Source: Archivesica marissinica
Lineage: Eukaryota > Mollusca > Bivalvia > Venerida > Vesicomyidae
Length of the DNA stretch: 64,000 nucleotides
Assembly (NCBI GenBank): GCA_014843695.1
Contig: CM026400.1
Span: 37,432,234 to 37,496,233, forward strand
Reading direction: 5' to 3'
Below are positions 53,121 through 63,893 of the stretch, one piece after another. The position numbers and the translations under genes were made by a program. Within the stretch, counting starts at the first letter, position 1, and each line of letters begins with the position of its first letter. The notes below the pieces were generated by a model. It was not told the DNA's origin. It searched no databases and saw only the letters and a list, made by a program, of their open reading frames with translations.

Positions 53121-53704
53121 GTGACACGAATGGACATACCTCTGTATTACAGGATTATATTTCTGTCGATAACTTTCTCGCTGATCAGTTTGGTTTTGAT
53201 GAGGAAATAGTAAGTGTATACAACTCGGTGGACGTTATTTCAAACTATAATGTCTCAATTAATAGAGCTTCGAATGATACTAAAGTAAATTCTTCTGGAT
53301 CAAAATTCCTTGACACTTGTAAAAACAATAATTTATTTATACTGAACGGCAGAATAGGGACCGACAAGGGCGTTGGAGACTTTACATTTAGAGATACGTC
53401 AGTAATATATTATATTGCTGCGTCTAGCCATTGTTTTGCGCATTTCTCAAATTTTAATATAAGCTATGTAGATTCTCTTTTTTCTGATGGTCACGCTCTA
53501 CTTTCCCTCGATCTTAAGTTTTACCGCTCAAATGCAAATGAATTAAATACCCCGAATGTAAATGAAAGTTGTAAGGAGGATTTATTGCGCAAACCGCCCA
53601 AGTGGTTGGATTCTTTAAAAAACGAATTTACTGCAAATATTGACCTAAACAAACTAAACGATATCAAAACGGTTCTGGCAAGTTCGTATGAAAACCAAAC
53701 ATAA
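53105..53704 (+). pseudogene. LINE B C-terminal endonuclease half
   Basis: Frame continues as CILLGDTNGHTS (GDFN-type catalytic motif, here GDTN) and LFSDGHALLSLDL near 53,480 (the SDH catalytic His motif), followed by a basic linker. Compared with LINE A, which keeps a VYIPP block and 20-30 residues before GDFNSRT (62,758-62,900), LINE B lacks that segment: CEYVISERY runs almost straight into GD. A deletion and a frame change therefore coincide at 53,095-53,115. The copy cannot make active endonuclease. A further 1-base shift near 53,695 leads into the next frame. Confidence 0.75.
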
Positions 53705-56140
53705 TATAAATGATGTGTCGACAATGATTGGGGAGTTATTTAATGATTCTGCGCATGCAACGTTTCCCAACAATACCAACGGTTTACATTATTTTAAATT
53801 TATGGATGAAGCGCCAAAAAATAATAAACCCTTCTTCGGTCCTCAGTGTAAGAAAGCGAGATCTAAATATAACAAAGCTCGCCGACAGTATAATCTCCAT
53901 AAAACGGATTACTGTAAACAGCAACTAAATCGTGCAAGTAAATTTTATAAGCAAACGATGAATACATATATACGGTTACATAAGTCTAAGAAGGAACGAA
54001 AATTGCGTGAAATGCATTCAAAATGTCCAAAAGAATTTTGGAAGGTAATAAATAATATTAATAAGCCGGCGCAAAGTAATATACCCGATGCACAAGCGTT
54101 TTTTAACCATTATAAAAAGGTAAATATAAACCCAGATCACACAGATTCAATAGATTTCCAATATGACAAGAATAGTGCCGATGCCATATTGAATTGTCCA
54201 ATATCTCCACAAGAAATAAATAAAATGATACTTAAATGCAATAATGCAAAGGCTGCATCCACATATGACTATATATATAATGAATATTTAAAATGTACTA
54301 CAACTGATATGCTTCCAGTTTATACGTCATTCTTCAACATGATTCTTACTACGGGAATAATCCCGGAAACCTGGTTAATCGGAACTATCAAACCTATCTT
54401 TAAAAGAAGGGTTCCACACTTCAGCCATCAAACTATAGACCTATTACAATATTAAGTTGCCTAGATAAACTCTTCACAGCTATACTGAATGAACGTGTAA
54501 CTCGTTTCCTTAACCAATATAACTTACTGAACGAAAACCAGGCGGGCTTCAGGGCAAATTACTCGACATGTGACCATATATTTACTTTAAAATGTTTGAT
54601 TGACAAACTTAGACAACAGAAGAAGAAACTCTACTGCTCGTATGTGGATTTCTCCTTAGCATTCGATCAAATTTGGAGGGCGGGTCTGTGGAGCAAGCTA
54701 ACTAAAAATGGAGTAAATGGGAAAATCTTTAAAATAATATACAACATGTACTTAGATATTAAATCTTGCGTGTCAGTTATCGATAATCTGTCCACATTTT
54801 TTAAAAGCAATTGTGGTGTTCGTCAAGGAGAAAATGTGTCGCCCATTTTATTTTCTATCTATTTAAACGATTTAGAATCATATCTAGAGGTTAACAACTC
54901 TGGTCTGAAGCTTGATCAACCGCATATAGACGTAAACACATACCTTAAGATTTTTATTTTGTTATATGCAGATGATACAGTTATTGTAAGTGACGACCCT
55001 GAATCATTTCAGCACATGTTAAACGAATTCAATACATACTGTAAAATATGGAAGCTACAAATTAATATGACTAAGACAAAAGTTATAGTTTTTGGCACTA
55101 ATAAACCGGGTAATTTTAAATTTACTTTAAATGGACAAGTAGTAGAAACGGTTAAAGAATACAAGTATTTGGGTTTGTTATTTTCGTCTTCAGGCAGTTT
55201 CTCAAATGCGAAAAACCAACTAGTTAGCCAAGCCAATAAAGCTATGCATATTTTATATTCTAGAATATATAATCTTGATTTACCTATAGATATACAACTA
55301 AAGCTTTTTGACCAGACAATACTACCTATTTTAACATACAATTGTGAGACTTGGGGGTTCGAAAATAATGATATTATAGAACGAGTACATTCAGATTTTC
55401 TACGTAAAATTACAAAAAGCAAGAGAAGTACCCCACTTTACATGCTATACGGAGAATTAGTGAGATACCCAATATATATTATTATTATATCACAACTGAT
55501 AAAATATTGGGCAAAACTATTAGCTGGTAGCGAAACAAAGTTATCAAGAGTTTGTTATGAGAACATGTTATGTTCAGCAATTGATTACAAATGGCTCAAT
55601 TTTGTCAAACATATTTTAAATTCAACAGGAAACACTTTTGTTTGGGTAGCCCAGAAAACCATTGATTTAAAAAATATCCACATAATAATAAAACGAAATT
55701 TAACAGATCAGATTTTACAAAATTGGAACGGCAATCTAAACAATTCATCTAAAGGTATCAATTATAGATTATACAAGGAAGACGCTGTCCTGGAAACATA
55801 TTTAACGTCGCTTTCAATAAATTTACGTTTATCTCTATTCCATTTTAGGACTGGAAATCACAGGTTACCGGTGCAAACCGGACGTTGGTCACAGTCTTTT
55901 ATACCACTTGAAAACCGGACATGTAGGTTATGCCCCCTTAATGACATAGGCGATGAATTTCACTACCTCTTAACATGCCCGTTCTTTTCAACTTCAAGAA
56001 AAGTCTATATCGCACGTCGTTATTATTGTAACCCCAATACGCTTAAATATAAAGATTTACTATGTACAAAATCAGTTAGGACTCTAACTCGACTCGCTAT
56101 ATTTGCGAAAATCATAATGACTCAATTTAAACGTGAATAG
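53688..56140 (+). pseudogene. LINE B reverse transcriptase and C-terminal knuckle
   Basis: Frame one (53,688-54,410) holds the Lys/Arg-rich linker (FFGPQCKKARSKYNKARRQY, FWKVINNINKP) and the first RT block ending TWLIGTIKPIFK. A single-base indel at the A/G run near 54,409 shifts to the frame that stays open to 56,140: PSNYRPITILSCLDKLF, NQAGFRANYST, SYVDFSLAFDQIW, CGVRQGENVSPILFSIYL, LLYADDTVIVS (YADD, 54,965-54,976), EYKYLGLLFSSSG, then a thumb and connection region. The end is NRTCRLCPLNDIGDEFHYLL then TCP, a C-x-x-C...H...C zinc knuckle. Repairing only this indel would give a full RT, so the copy is fairly young. Confidence 0.88.
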
Positions 56141-56975: not shown

Positions 56976-57758
56976 ATTAATAATGCATGTGCATAATTTT
57001 CCGAGACAACTTAGAAATGTAATTGGTCTGTAATTGTCTGGGTTTGTGACATCACCATTATTATTTTTGTATATATAGGATTTATTATACCAATGGTTCA
57101 GGGATAACACCACTGTCCAATACAAGGATAAATAACTTAATGTATATATTCTTCATCATTGAGTAAGATGTTTTAATTGGTTCATTTACAATTTTGTCGA
57201 ATCCACATGAGTTGTTATTTTTCAACAATCGTATTGCTTTTTCTATTTCAACATCAGTAATTTTCATATTAATATGTTCAGTTATATAATCATTTTCAAT
57301 ATCACTATTTACACCATCTCTATCAGTAGTGTCTACATTACTGTTAACGTTTTTAAGGAAATCATAAATGTCAGTTTAACTGGCCTGATTGTCACTTTTA
57401 ATTTTTCCTTGCAAGATTTTCCAGTACGTTCTTGGGTCTTTATTTTTGATATTACGCAATTTTGTGATATTTTTACATTTTGATTTATTAAAGAATAATC
57501 GCATTGTGTGTTGTATTCCTTGCTACAATTTCTGAACTGTTGCTTATTTGAATCGGTATTGCGCAACTTATATAAGTATTTGGCTCTATGGACATTTTTT
57601 TCGAGCTTTTTTACATTTATGCCCAAACCATGGTGACGGTTGATTATTTGGAGAATCGTCGGATACATTATTTTTGTTTTCAGGAATGTAGCCAAACGAT
57701 TCCTTAGATGTTTTCAAAAATAACGACGCAATATCATTAACAACGATATCAGCATTTA
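56976..57758 (-). mobile_element. LINE A, middle part: linker and first RT blocks
   Basis: Minus strand from 57,758 down: NADIVVNDIASLFLKTSKES, PSPWFGHKCKKARKKC, RAKYLYKLRNTDSNKQQF, then MKITDVEIEKAIRLLKNNNS and CGFDKIVNEPIK, VIPEPLV, and NPDNYRPITFLSCLGKLCT followed by CIINN. There it is cut by the LINE B tail at 56,975. The pieces match the LINE B linker and RT N-terminus in order. The upper end abuts the DNA transposon at the TTA target, and the reading continues beyond it at 62,293. Confidence 0.85.
57756..57758. repeat. TTA target-site duplication, left copy
   Basis: TTA directly precedes the left inverted repeat and matches the TTA at 62,293-62,295. Removing the element and one TTA joins LINE A on the minus strand as an open frame reading NNINQL then NADIVVNDI. 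This fixes both the element ends and the 3-bp duplication. Confidence 0.85.
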
Positions 57759-58100
57759 TAGTGAGAGTCACTACAAGGGTATTTTGCAATAATTGCTCGC
57801 TTAATTCTAGAATTTAGCCACTTCGTGTACTGATAGAATGATAATGTGTGGACCTTTTCCTAACGAGACCCTAGGTTCTGGGTCAAGGGTTCCCCGAAAA
57901 TTCAAGATGGCCGCCAAGATGGCCGCCGTTTTGGCAGTGTCAGTGAGTTGGACATATAATTGTACTATACTTTTATTACTTGACATATTTAAATCAAATC
58001 AACTGGATGTCATAGATATTAAATATATGCTTAAAATGAAATACATTGTGGGTGCTCATTGGTCAAAGTCAAGGTCATAGTCAAGGTCAAATGGTGCAAT
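57759..58100 (+). repeat. Left terminal inverted repeat
   Basis: The outer 170 bp (to about 57,927) align with the right end almost continuously, with short indels near 57,775-57,790. After a divergent stretch the block at 58,061-58,092 (TCAAAGTCAAGGTCATAG then TCAAGGTCAAATG) matches the right end again at nearly the same distance from the tip (about 302 versus 284 bp). Confidence 0.88.
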
Positions 58101-58779
58101 TTACATAAAAAACACATCTTTACCGTGCATAAGTACCTTTATTTTGAAAACTATAGGTTTTAATAGTATGTTATTTACATTAATGTAATGCATGATGTAT
58201 GCCCTTTAATTTGGTATGTTGATTACTGACTTCTGTTTTGTATCCATTGATATACAAGATGATTTCCAAGTTGGCCGCCATTTTCCCAGTGGAATCCAAA
58301 TATGTATTGTGCAATAGAATGATTATATATTTTTTTCTTTTTAGATTAAAATAAACGTTTAAATGTTTGATACACATACAATCGACATACATGAACTCTA
58401 AAACAATGTTAATATTTTATAACTGCTAAGAAATATGTATATATAGTAGTAGCCGTATATCCGGATATGGTATTGATTCGGATATTACAATTGTTGCAGT
58501 ACTAAATGGCTTACATTTTTATAATTTAGTTAAATTATGCACACAAACTAATTATTATAGTGTATGTACTGTCATAAGAAGTCAAATTCCCGGAGCCTTT
58601 GTTTTGATAATGCATAGCTCTTGTTACTAGTATATTTGATAACCACCAGTAGTATGCAATTTTTATGTAATGGTTGCCTGCAGCAATAACAAACTACTAA
58701 CACAAGATTCATCACAAGAATGCATTACTAACTTTACTAACATGAGATATACTAACATACATGTACCAACGTAGCATCA
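58101..58779. other. Transposon interior, 5' non-coding
   Basis: AT-rich with no supported gene. A third ATGG/GGCCGCC-type motif, TTGGCCGCCATTTT, lies near 58,270. The minus-strand open frame at 58,180-58,392 has no family signal. Any promoter of the gene at 58,780 should be here or in the left TIR. Confidence 0.5.
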
Positions 58780-61035
58780 ATGTCAAAAAAAGTTGTCATA
58801 GCTAAAACTGAAAACATTGATTTAGAAAAAACACAGTCGACAAGTAGTATAGAGGAATATGAAATTGATTGGGCAAAATTTGTATTGTGCCAGGAAAAAA
58901 GCAATGCTCATCTTGTGTGTCCAGTTAATTATGAAACATTCCTACAGGATATCAACCGTTATTATAGGTCTGGACGTTGTCTATATCAACTCAATAGCTG
59001 CTTAGTTGGTGATATTGCTAAAAGTATATGGTGCAAAATGGCATAAAACATGTAGAAACAATGTTGGATTGTGGAAATATGAACGACAAAAACGTCATGC
59101 AACTTCAAGCAGGAATGACCCAACAGAAAAATCCAAGAAAGGTAACCCGTCTAAGTAGTGTTGATGCCGCGGCTCAAGTGGATACTAAATGCTTGACACA
59201 ACTACACAACTTTTACGTTGTATGCTATGTGGCCTTGAAATAGCCAGGCTGGTTAATGAATTTGAAGATTCAAAAATTGTCTCTACAGCTGAATACAATT
59301 ACAAACATCAGGAACAAACAAAGAGTATCCAACATACATTTCAGCAGCAAGTAAATGATCTGGTGTCTGTGATAAGAAACCTAAGAAACCCGTTTGCTGA
59401 TAAATCGGATGGCCTACTAGTTCTTGACACAGCCCAAAATGGCTGATGCAGGCGTAAAACCCGAAATATATATATAAATTCTTGACACAAGATATATTGT
59501 TGAACCAAGTGTAGCAGAGAGCATAAAACACTTAACATACTTGGGGAAGCAGCACTATGAGACATATGTACAGGAGAGGCTTGCAACACGTGAACAATCA
59601 GTGACAGACACAATTAAACAAACCAAATTACCATTGTTCAGCAGGCCACCATTTGGGAAACAGTCAAAACAAAAACGTGAACTTGTGTCCCTTAAAGTGA
59701 CTTGCGCATTATGCTCGAGGCTGTATGTGTCGTGTCAGGTTCGAAAAGGAGACCTGAGTTCCTCTCGCATGAAAACACTAAATATGCCCCATCACTCTCA
59801 CACTTTGATAAATTGCACACTGGAAAAACGTCTGAACTGACGCCCTGTCTGGAACAGCTCTGCCAATCATGTAAACCAACACATGAAAATCTAGTGGTAG
59901 ACGGGATTATTAACATGCTGAAGCCACAGAAAAAATGCAGGACATTTCAGGATTATGCTGTAGACGTGTTTCTGCCATATGTACAAGGGCATTTGACTAA
60001 TGTCCATATAGTTGATTTAGTTTGGGATAGATACATTGACACTAGCTTGATAACTGGGGCACGGGGAGATCGTGGTACTGATATTCGTAAAAGGGTGCTG
60101 CCTAATACGACAATTCCATCTAACTGGGACACCTTCCTGCGAAATGATAAGAACAAGAATGAATTATTTGACTTCTTGACAACTGAATGTAGCAATATGA
60201 CAGTTCCATATGGAAAATATATCAATTCCACAAAAGGGGTCATTATTGAAACAACAGCAATCGAAAATAGAGATTCCATTGCACCATGCTCACATGAGGA
60301 AGCAGAGAGCATGCTTCTACTTCACGCAGCTCATGTCGGCAAATCTGAAATGAAGCGGATTATGATTAAGACAGTTGATACCGACGTTATTGTGACAGAT
60401 GCAGGAATGTTCAGTAAGTGTGGCTTAGATGAGCTATGGTTTGAATTTGGCACAGGAAAACTTCTCAGATATATACCCATACACAGCATGGTCACAATTA
60501 TGGGTGAAGATATGGCGAGGGCATTGCCAGGATTCCATGCATTTACGGGCTGCGACCAGGTGTCAGGATGTCTGGGATAAGGAAAGCAAACTTTGTTATC
60601 ATTTCCTCTGGCAGTTCAGGCATTTACAACATTGGGCAACACACCAAGTGAACAGCAGATCAATGACTGTATCCCTGTTGTTGAAAGGTTTGTTGTGTTG
60701 ATGTACGACAGGTCAAGTCAATGAGAAAACACCAATGATGTCCGCCATGATCTATTCACACAGAAAGGCCGTGCTATAGATGCTATACCACCAACATCTG
60801 CTGCTCTTTACCAGCACACACACCAGGCAGGCTACTGCTGGGGTCAAGCAATATGTTCATCGCCAACACTACCATTTCCAGCAGAACATGGATGGACAAA
60901 GGAAGCCGGACCTACACTCACCATGGAAACCACTGTGGATCAAACTCCAGCATGGAATTATTGAAGTGTGGCTGTGACAAGGATAAGGGTTGAGCTTCCA
61001 TGCACCGCTTTATGTAAATGCAATGGACACTGAGA
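58780..61035 (+). pseudogene. Transposon-borne uncharacterised protein, FEN/XPG-nuclease-like motifs plus C-terminal Cys cluster (broken)
   Basis: Pieces in order: MSKKVVIAKTENIDL and YEIDWAKFVLCQ with VCPVNYETFL (58,780-59,030); after a shift, AKWHKTCRNNVGLWKYERQK (59,033). Next come MLCGLEIARLVNEFEDSKI, NDLVSVIRNLRNPFADKSDG and LLVLDT (to 59,431), a SINE-tail insertion, RYIVEPSVAESIKHLTYLG, and LCSRLYVSCQVRKGDL. After another shift near 59,757 come FLSHENTKYAPSL, TFQDYAVDVFLPYVQGHL, LVWDRYIDTSL and IPSNWDTFLRND. Acidic motifs follow: EEAE (60,296-60,307), DTDV (60,377-60,388) and HAFTGCD (GCD 60,548-60,556). A shift then leads to GKQTLLSFPLAVQAF, VVERFVVLMYDRSS, LFTQKGRAIDAIPPTSAALY, QAGYCWGQ, and Cys-rich LLKCGC and CTALCKCNGHC. 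From memory this is a large uncharacterised animal family; the nuclease reading is inference. Confidence 0.72.
59421..59489 (+). mobile_element. 5'-truncated SINE tail inserted in the transposon gene, with 11-bp target duplication
   Basis: TTCTTGACACA occurs at 59,421-59,431 and 59,479-59,489. The 47 bp between contain GCAGGCGTAAAACCCGAAAT, shared with the 3' end of the full SINE at 61,517-61,763, and an AT-rich tail. Insert plus one duplication is 58 bp, which shifts the frame by one. Deleting it restores a single frame through LLVLDT into RYIVEP. The insertion postdates the coding state of the gene. Confidence 0.9.
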
Positions 61036-61503
61036 TGGGCTTTAAGTACAATTGTATCATTGATGGCCTTTGAATTGTAAAACAAGGTTTTACAATTAAG
61101 AATCTACGCCACCTGATCTACGCTCAATGTCTGTTTCCTCAGGTTCCCAATCTATACTCATGCTGGATTGCGTTATTATTGAAACCGACACGCAATTTTG
61201 TTCCCGCCCAGTGATTTATTTAACATTATACCACAGTGCTTCCTGTACATGAATATTGTTAACTATGATATCGGAATGGCATTATCTGGGTAATAAATGA
61301 CCCGTAGGTACGTAGTACCATGATTCATATTTATTTCAGTCTTGTATTTTTGTTACACACATTGTATTTGTAAAAGTGTAATATGGCGGCCATATTGGTT
61401 ATTAGTCGTCACTATGGTGAAACCTACCTAATTTTAAATACTATACTGTAGTATAATTATATAAAGCGATATTATGCTAATATTAAAAAGAAAATATGTT
61501 AAT
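61036..61503. other. Transposon interior, 3' non-coding
   Basis: No gene seen. A GGCGGCCAT motif lies near 61,386. Confidence 0.5.
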
Positions 61504-61776
61504 AGAAGTAGTTACTATTATGTTATATTTCGGGTTTTACGCCTGCTATATCGCCGGCGGGCAGTGTATTTAACAATACCTTTCCTGGGCAGGCTCCAGC
61601 GGTTAACCAGTAATGGGGTGCACCAACCTCCGTAAGAAACTGCCAACTTTTTCATATAAATGAGACACGGCCTGAGCGGGGCTCGAACCCGTGACCATCA
61701 GTGATGATAGGTTACAGTGATATACAAGTCAGCGACCTTAACCACTCGACCACGGAGGCGGACAGAAGTAGTTACT
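61504..61776 (-). mobile_element. Full-length tRNA-derived SINE with 13-bp target duplication
   Basis: AGAAGTAGTTACT flanks the insert at 61,504-61,516 and 61,764-61,776. On the minus strand the element starts GTCCGCCTCCG, with an RNA polymerase III A box TGGTCGAGTGG (61,742-61,752) and B box GGTTCGAGCCC (about 61,679-61,689). This is the layout of a Ser/Leu-type tRNA head. A body with GGTTGGTGCACCCCATTACT follows, then the 3' end GCAGGCGTAAAACCCGAAAT with an AT-rich tail. It is not a working tRNA gene: the two boxes are too far apart and no acceptor stem closes. The 3' end is the one copied at 59,432. Confidence 0.9.
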
Positions 61777-61969
61777 GTATAGACTACTTTCACCACACAT
61801 GTTAACAAAACGTCCATCTTATTACCATGGCAATATATTATGTGATAGCAGTACTCCATTTCAAAGAAGATAAATTGTGCTGTAAGTTGATGTGCAAATC
61901 AGTATAATATTTAATATAAATAATCCAACACATTCATAATTATATATGTTAAAATAAATTTCTTCAAAT

Positions 61970-62292
61970 TTTGATCATGTGACCTTGAAAATGACCTTGA
62001 CCTTGACATTAGATCATCATTGACGGCTTTCAGTTTTTGAACATTTCCTTTCAGAACAGGATGCTATTATTTTTATTTGTTTATATGTGCTAATAAATAA
62101 GAAATATAACTATTTATATATTTATCTATTAATGCCGGCCATCTTGGTGGCCATCTTGGATGTTGGGGGACCCCTTGACCCAGAGTCTAGGGTCTCGTTG
62201 GAAAGATAGTCGCATGTCATCATACTATCACCATGCAAAGTGGCTAAATTCTAGAATTAAACGAGCAATTATTCTTATAGTGACTCTCACTA
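61970..62292 (-). repeat. Right terminal inverted repeat
   Basis: Reverse complement of the left TIR. The tip is TAGTGACTCTCACTA (62,278-62,292), the CCATCTTGG pair lies at 62,139-62,159, and the inner GTGACCTTGAAAATGACCTT cluster at 61,979-62,008. Between inner cluster and CCATCTTGG block the two TIRs have diverged. Confidence 0.88.
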
Positions 62293-62295
62293 TTA
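62293..62295. repeat. TTA target-site duplication, right copy
   Basis: TTA immediately follows the right tip and matches 57,756-57,758. Confidence 0.85.
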
Positions 62296-63373: not shown

Positions 63374-63496
63374 ATTTGAATGAATGTCTTATCAATAATG
63401 GAGGATGCGGCCAAAAATGTATTAACTCAGTGGGATCTTATTCGTGTGACTGCAAATCCGGGTACAAACTGAACTCAAACGGGAAGACATGTTCAG
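63374..63496 (+). CDS. Exon 5 (visible): calcium-binding EGF-like domain
   Basis: The acceptor TTTGCAG and donor GTAATTTA bound 123 bp of phase 1-1, the same length as exons 4 and 6. With the incoming G it reads [20 protein letters not shown] then [20 protein letters not shown]. The D-L-N-E-C start and the C-I-N-S-x-G-S-Y sequence mark a calcium-binding EGF domain with six cysteines. It continues the tandem series after the transposon-filled intron, which must be spliced out for the protein to be made. Confidence 0.93.
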
Positions 63497-63770
63497 GTAA
63501 TTTATTTCATTTAACCAAAATACTTCCGCCATCTTTGATCAGTGCAATTTGATTTTGAAAATGTTAAAATAAATTCCACATTATCACAATTATTGGCGAA
63601 CAAATGGCAACATCGTATTACGATATACTAACCATTGAGAACGTTTTAGACTCACTATATGCATTTAATATACTAAATGTTAAAGATTATAATATGAAAA
63701 ATTACCTTTTGCATTTAAACATAAAATGTCAAATAGTTGACTGGTACCACTCTTCAGTTTGTCTTTTCAG

Positions 63771-63893
63771 ATATCAATGAGTGCATTATTGGTACTTCCG
63801 GTTGTGCGCATGGGTGTAACAACACCGTGGGCTCCTACACATGTTCCTGCAATACCGGTTTTGTGCTGGGTGTTGATGGGAAATCGTGCGAAG
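63771..63893 (+). CDS. Exon 6 (visible): calcium-binding EGF-like domain
   Basis: The acceptor GTCTTTTCAG and donor GTAGCTGT bound 123 bp of phase 1-1. The reading is DINECIIGTSGCAHGCNNTV then GSYTCSCNTGFVLGVDGKSC. It has the D-I-N-E-C calcium-binding start and all six cysteines. The separation from exon 5 is only 274 bp. The phase-1 end (GAA G) shows that further exons lie beyond the right edge, most likely more EGF domains. Tandem calcium-binding EGFs of this kind form rigid extracellular rods in fibrillin-, fibulin- and Notch-like proteins, but the few domains seen do not allow a name. Confidence 0.93.

Follow-up and report, generated by a model that had tools for sequence, protein, structure and literature searches.

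The window analysed here is a stretch of 64,000 nucleotides from the vesicomyid bivalve Archivesica marissinica (assembly GCA_014843695.1, contig CM026400.1). Towards its 3′ end lies a DNA transposon of 4534 bp bounded by terminal inverted repeats (TIRs), the coding content of which is reduced to remnants of a gene for a protein resembling the FEN/XPG nucleases. The element is probably ordinary in kind, namely a gene-dead, internally deleted derivative of a transposon that coded for both a transposase and an XPG-like nuclease. Its features are listed below in window coordinates; L051 is a relative with a long open reading frame (ORF) found elsewhere in the genome and described further on.

57756..57758, strand not applicable: left target duplication, TTA
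57759..62292, plus strand: transposon copy bounded by TIRs, 4534 bp
57759..58112, plus strand: left TIR, tip TAGTGAGAGTCACTA, gapped match of about 350 bp to the right arm
58783..59034, plus strand: N-terminal coding remnant (MSKK...), without a match to the L051 protein
59110..59200, plus strand: putative deletion junction, approximate; start of homology to the long ORF of the relatives, at L051 residue 734
59198..59840, plus strand: coding remnants corresponding to L051 residues ~749-911, with frameshifts and stops
59756..60964, plus strand: remnant of the FEN/XPG-like domain, motifs VWD.Y, HEEAES, DTD and GCD..S
61524..61763, minus strand: insertion in this copy, recognised by eye, resembling a tRNA-derived short interspersed nuclear element (SINE); not a part of the family
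61938..62292, minus strand: right TIR
62293..62295, strand not applicable: right target duplication, TTA

The original prediction, made from the letters of the window, described a real DNA transposon, and this was borne out: the inverted repeats extend with gaps over about 350 bp, both ends share the 15-nt tip TAGTGAGAGTCACTA without a mismatch, and TTA stands on both sides. Within the repeats, a terminal pair of arms (57758-57784 and 62267-62293; 27 nt, 85% identity) is followed by a second pair (57788-57930 and 62131-62273; 143 nt, 81% identity). In silico removal of the element and one TTA left a 72-codon minus-strand frame running across the junction, and the protein reading of the emptied site matched a long interspersed nuclear element (LINE) at 53.8-54.1 kb of the window (tblastx E 2e-6). 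The restoration of a LINE reading frame on excision, also predicted, was thus reproduced. The protein kin of this split LINE remnant is a LINE with reverse-transcriptase-like ORFs, recognised by eye, at 53658-56140.

The FEN/XPG-like remnant contains two in-frame stops before its end, a TAA after GCLG and a TGA after DRSSQ. The first part of the SINE-like stretch (61524-61546) recurs, exactly and in inverted orientation, at 59448-59470, where it interrupts the window gene.

Copies of the element and decay of its gene

The source genome of the window (1.54 Gb) was searched with the left TIR. This gave 247 candidate places, 40 of which were scored, with an identity to the left TIR of 96-100%; many copies of the element are thus present in the genome. 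Twenty of the 40 places were examined as 10-kb stretches. Both ends of the element were visible at 16 of these loci, while at the other four (L037, L038, L043 and L046) no right end was seen within the stretch. The flanks differed between copies wherever they were seen. A perfect 3-bp duplication surrounded 15 of the 17 copies with both ends (14 of the 16 loci, plus the window), L033 and L035 within this count being one insertion present on two contigs; L047 and L049 showed no such duplication, though both ends were visible. The duplicated trimers included TTA, ATA, TAA, TTT, TCT, TCA, TTC and AAC. The proposed TTA duplication consequently holds for the window and not as a general rule, since the trimer varies among copies. 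The flanks of L034, joined with one ATA, form the palindrome AACAAACGTCGTATACGACGTTTGTT, a single case that may hint at a target preference.

Seven copies (L036, L040, L041, L042, L047, L048 and L050; 4470-4559 bp) are uninterrupted and align end to end, L040 as two pieces. They contain no ORF of at least 150 amino acids outside the region of the FEN/XPG-like gene. As far as these seven copies go, the proposal that a FEN/XPG-like protein is the sole gene is correct for the window family; it is not supported by the related elements described below. The extra segments of longer copies were inserts not common to other copies. By eye, these were a reverse transcriptase in L031, a hAT-like transposase in L044 and other XPG-like elements in L034 and L039. 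The additional ORFs seen in L031 and L044 were considered as candidate genes of the family and rejected, being unshared and taken as nested inserts. These two inserts lie at a near-identical spot (element coordinates ~900-950) and show no DNA similarity to each other.

Neither in the window nor at any of the 16 loci with both ends is the FEN/XPG-like gene intact (broken in 17 of 17). When ten copies were aligned, their majority reading was itself broken, and the first (founder) frameshift was present in all nine readable copies, L045 not matching the search string. The copies diverge from the majority by 1.4-2.0%, depending on the region. The 267 changes from the majority are distributed over the three codon positions as 89, 92 and 86, and 23.6% of them are synonymous, the no-selection expectation being 22% (uniform changes) to 28% (transitions weighted fourfold). 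A broken founder gene, together with neutral drift among its copies, indicates that the window family moved in trans, and recently; the founder was already gene-dead when it was mobilised. L043, which has a 3.4-kb gap inside its gene, was inspected as a possible undeleted parent, and the transposase-like segment described below was not found in it.

The seven uninterrupted copies, with their FEN/XPG-like gene alone, are what would be expected of a transposon class devoid of a DDE transposase, in which the FEN/XPG-like protein was itself the transposase and made the 3-bp staggered cuts. However, a gene that is broken in 17 of 17 copies, and neutral in the ten aligned, is probably not their mover.

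Relatives coding for two conserved parts

A protein search of the same genome yielded 2362 first-look candidates, from which 141 matches were scored. By hand count, 44 of these 141 rows fell within 37-47% identity; open frames of 943-1523 amino acids were present in ten of the 44, one with a stop inside the match. The 1523-amino-acid frame, measured from stop to stop, is listed at four places, all with one identical score. One of the four was read, as L051 (6 kb) plus the 646 bases upstream of it (L052); the L051 stretch contains 1363 codons without a stop. The window gene, in a pieced reading, aligned with residues 734-1304 of these 1363 (37% identity over 584 columns, E 1e-102). The L051 gene is flanked by inverted repeats, identical in 235 of 244 columns by hand count, with their outer ends ∼5.5 kb apart. 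A minisatellite with several open frames, reading WSIQEPVILVDS, lies downstream of this element (L051 4790-5530).

Two more relatives are nested in copies of the window family. The first, n34 (4542 bp, in L034), has the ends TAGTGCAGTACA and TAGTACAATACA and lies between copies of CAA. Its limits were chosen from the empty site, GACAAGTAG, which is seen in the siblings L039 and L044; the two ends match at 13 of 17 anchored positions, and none of 20000 random position pairs was as good. The second, n39 (4358 bp, in L039), has TIRs of ∼400 bp and lies between copies of ATA, and its empty site is seen in L036, L040 and L044. Both have ends of the TAGT/AGTA type, and each codes for a transposase-like and an XPG-like part, with frame lesions. 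The TIR core AAAATTCAAgATGGCCGCCA of the window family recurs in the L051 element (0 of 500 two-base-block shuffles were as good) and in n39 (2 of 500). Since this core is shared by the L051 element and n39, and not by n34, cross-recognition of TIRs between families may be possible.

Upstream of the XPG-like half, the motifs PVLTxDQPL, GGxH, D..xEQ and K..GG are conserved in L051 and in both nested families (three rows). The homology of the window gene begins at L051 residue 734, immediately past the conserved E of this middle segment. The segment may correspond to the catalytic region of a transposase of the DDE-type, RNase H-like kind. That the gene of the intact relative, and that of both nested families, has another conserved segment besides the XPG-like half argues against the FEN/XPG-like protein being the transposase by itself, and that alternative now appears very unlikely. 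In view of the same observation, the original prediction of a class with a FEN/XPG-like gene and no transposase is not supported. The observation that, by the original prediction, would speak against it, namely intact elements with a transposase alongside the nuclease gene, has in large part been made, with the qualifications that the copies so far seen to carry the transposase-like segment do not have the exact TIR of the window, and that its DDE nature is putative.

In the XPG-like half, the acidic motifs of L051, the window family and the nested families follow the FEN/EXO1 order, not every row being complete: (V/F)DG; VWD.Y or FDGY; HEEAD or DAD; DTD; GCD..S..G.GK. A four-row profile of this half matched four sequences in the PDB, all of them exonuclease 1, and the final four motifs lined up with theirs. 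The likeness to human exonuclease 1, a member of the XPG family, resides in the order of the acidic motifs and in the GCD...G.GK.A region. In contrast to the human protein, those of the elements have an added C-terminal Cys-rich tail, reminiscent of a CXC domain (the match to Pfam preSET_CXC, at E 1.1, falls short of the cut-off). A PDB search with one n39 protein returned weak nitrophorin matches alone, and a Pfam match of this protein to DCAF17 (E 0.00055, below the Pfam cut-off) was set aside. A single-sequence fold of the XPG part of the window gene, with a mean predicted local distance difference test score (pLDDT) of 33, was not used. Scans of viral contigs with the n39 protein, the GCDT pattern and alignment A2 gave 1, 0 and 119 pattern matches, respectively, and prokaryote genome contigs scanned with the same alignment gave 51; no relative was present among them.

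That the FEN/XPG-like family is carried by transposons, as had been proposed, is confirmed by three families besides that of the window (the L051 element, n34 and n39). Such carriage would also explain the abundance predicted for the family, which is seen in the number of candidates and scored matches given above: it is abundant in this genome because its genes are transposon pieces. A fragment of a host XPG-family gene, captured by an unrelated transposon, would account for the distal gene part being the only one present in the window element. However, the same protein family is found in three or more other families of elements, each with inverted repeats of its own, and at 141 scored places of the 2362 candidates. 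Capture from the host is already contradicted by these related elements, and is scarcely credible.

Origin of the window element

The window element is best explained as a non-autonomous, internally deleted derivative of a transposon coding for a transposase and an XPG-like nuclease, moved in trans, and probably of the Academ superfamily (AcademX). The probability of this explanation is put at about 0.82. The ancestor would have contained one long gene between its TIRs, the product of which would have comprised, in this order, an N-terminal part, the transposase segment, the FEN/EXO1/XPG-like nuclease domain and, at the C terminus, a Cys-rich (CXC-like) tail. An internal deletion would have taken out the transposase segment, the frame lesions coming afterwards, and the broken founder would then have multiplied by cut-and-paste in trans via the enzyme of intact relatives. 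The transposase-like segment of such a relative might bind the TIRs, excise the element and join it to the target at a 3-bp stagger, while the nuclease might trim flaps or ends during transposition. The window family would contribute its TIRs alone.

Several observations count against this explanation. At the outer ends of the L051 element, no TAGT pair (TAGT faces TAGA) and no 3-bp duplication (the flank trimers are ACA and TGT) was seen. The N-terminal ∼126 amino acids of the window gene have no match in the L051 protein (best E 2.5), and for this reason the deletion is deduced from the point at which homology starts, not by comparison with a parent. A place at C12:33074368, 80% identical to the window ORF, is listed with a 1916-amino-acid frame containing one TAG; this could equally be a mere repeat frame, the parent itself or something in between. 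The TIR of n34 is short and imperfect, a local alignment of the n34 ends gave no long TIR, and the TIR similarity between n34 and the window element does not exceed that of shuffles (56 and 473 of 500). The left tip of n39 is without the first T. The middle segment has no match in Pfam, NCBIfam or the PDB, a result that also favours a class without a DDE transposase; no second catalytic (middle) acid is evident in it, and at none of the 20 examined loci does the element with the exact TIR of the window contain the segment as its own (the right end was unseen in four of them). The element proteins further differ from human exonuclease 1 in that the XPG profile match to that protein is weak (best E 0.04), and no XPG model matched in Pfam.

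A lone gene for an accessory nuclease between TIRs can arise by internal deletion, and need not denote a transposase-free class. The L051 element, with its open frame listed at four places under one score, would permit a direct test of the role of the nuclease in transposition. Beyond the window element, two EGF-like exons were recognised by eye on the plus strand, at 63380-63490 and 63770-63890.

Comparison with known transposon classes

Elements of the PIF/Harbinger class generate 3-bp duplications, often TTA or TAA (TWA-type). The window family resembles them in the length of its duplication and differs in its sequence, as AAC, TCT, TTC, TCA and TTT also occur. CACTA/EnSpm elements likewise generate 3-bp duplications and have a terminal CACTA, and the string CACTACAAG is present just inside the tip of the window family. 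Where a perfect duplication is present (15 copies), however, the mobile unit begins with 5′-TAGTG, outside CACTACAAG, so that CACTA is not the 5′ terminus. The CACTA inside the tip was rejected as the true end because the duplications flank TAGTG...CACTA.

The nuclease of AcademX elements is of the XPG type. The window family and its relatives resemble AcademX in that a nuclease apparently of this type is encoded with its motif order kept (the profile match being weak, as noted), and in their 3-bp duplications (15 of 17 window-family copies; CAA and ATA in the nested relatives). A literature search for Academ together with XPG gave no match, and the accessible portions of PMC9587614, PMC9004415 and PMC12730594 contain nothing on XPG in Academ. 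AcademX is described in PMC10045372 as encoding a nuclease and producing 3-4 bp duplications, and AcademH as encoding a helicase and producing duplications of 9-10 bp. In view of this description, the original suggestion of an undescribed class is doubtful. According to PMC10294476, Academ is abundant in bivalves, with 100 curated consensus elements of a mean length of 5,565 bp, a value near the ∼5.5 kb of the L051 element.

The carriers might instead form a superfamily distinct from Academ, TAGT-ended and 3-bp-duplicating, with an unrelated recombinase as the middle segment. The failure of that segment to match any library agrees with this, as does the fact that Academ was compared by description only; the nuclease and short duplications of AcademX, and the abundance and length of bivalve Academ, make it unlikely. 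Slightly less likely again is that the carriers constitute a separate superfamily whose middle segment would not be a classical DDE transposase, and that the XPG-like nuclease would share directly in the cutting and set the 3-bp stagger. Unlike AcademX, the window family is devoid of a transposase segment. Its relatives have the conserved DQPL/GGxH/D..EQ segment, for which no library gave a match. As matched by description and not by Academ sequence, the carriers are likely to be members of Academ (AcademX).

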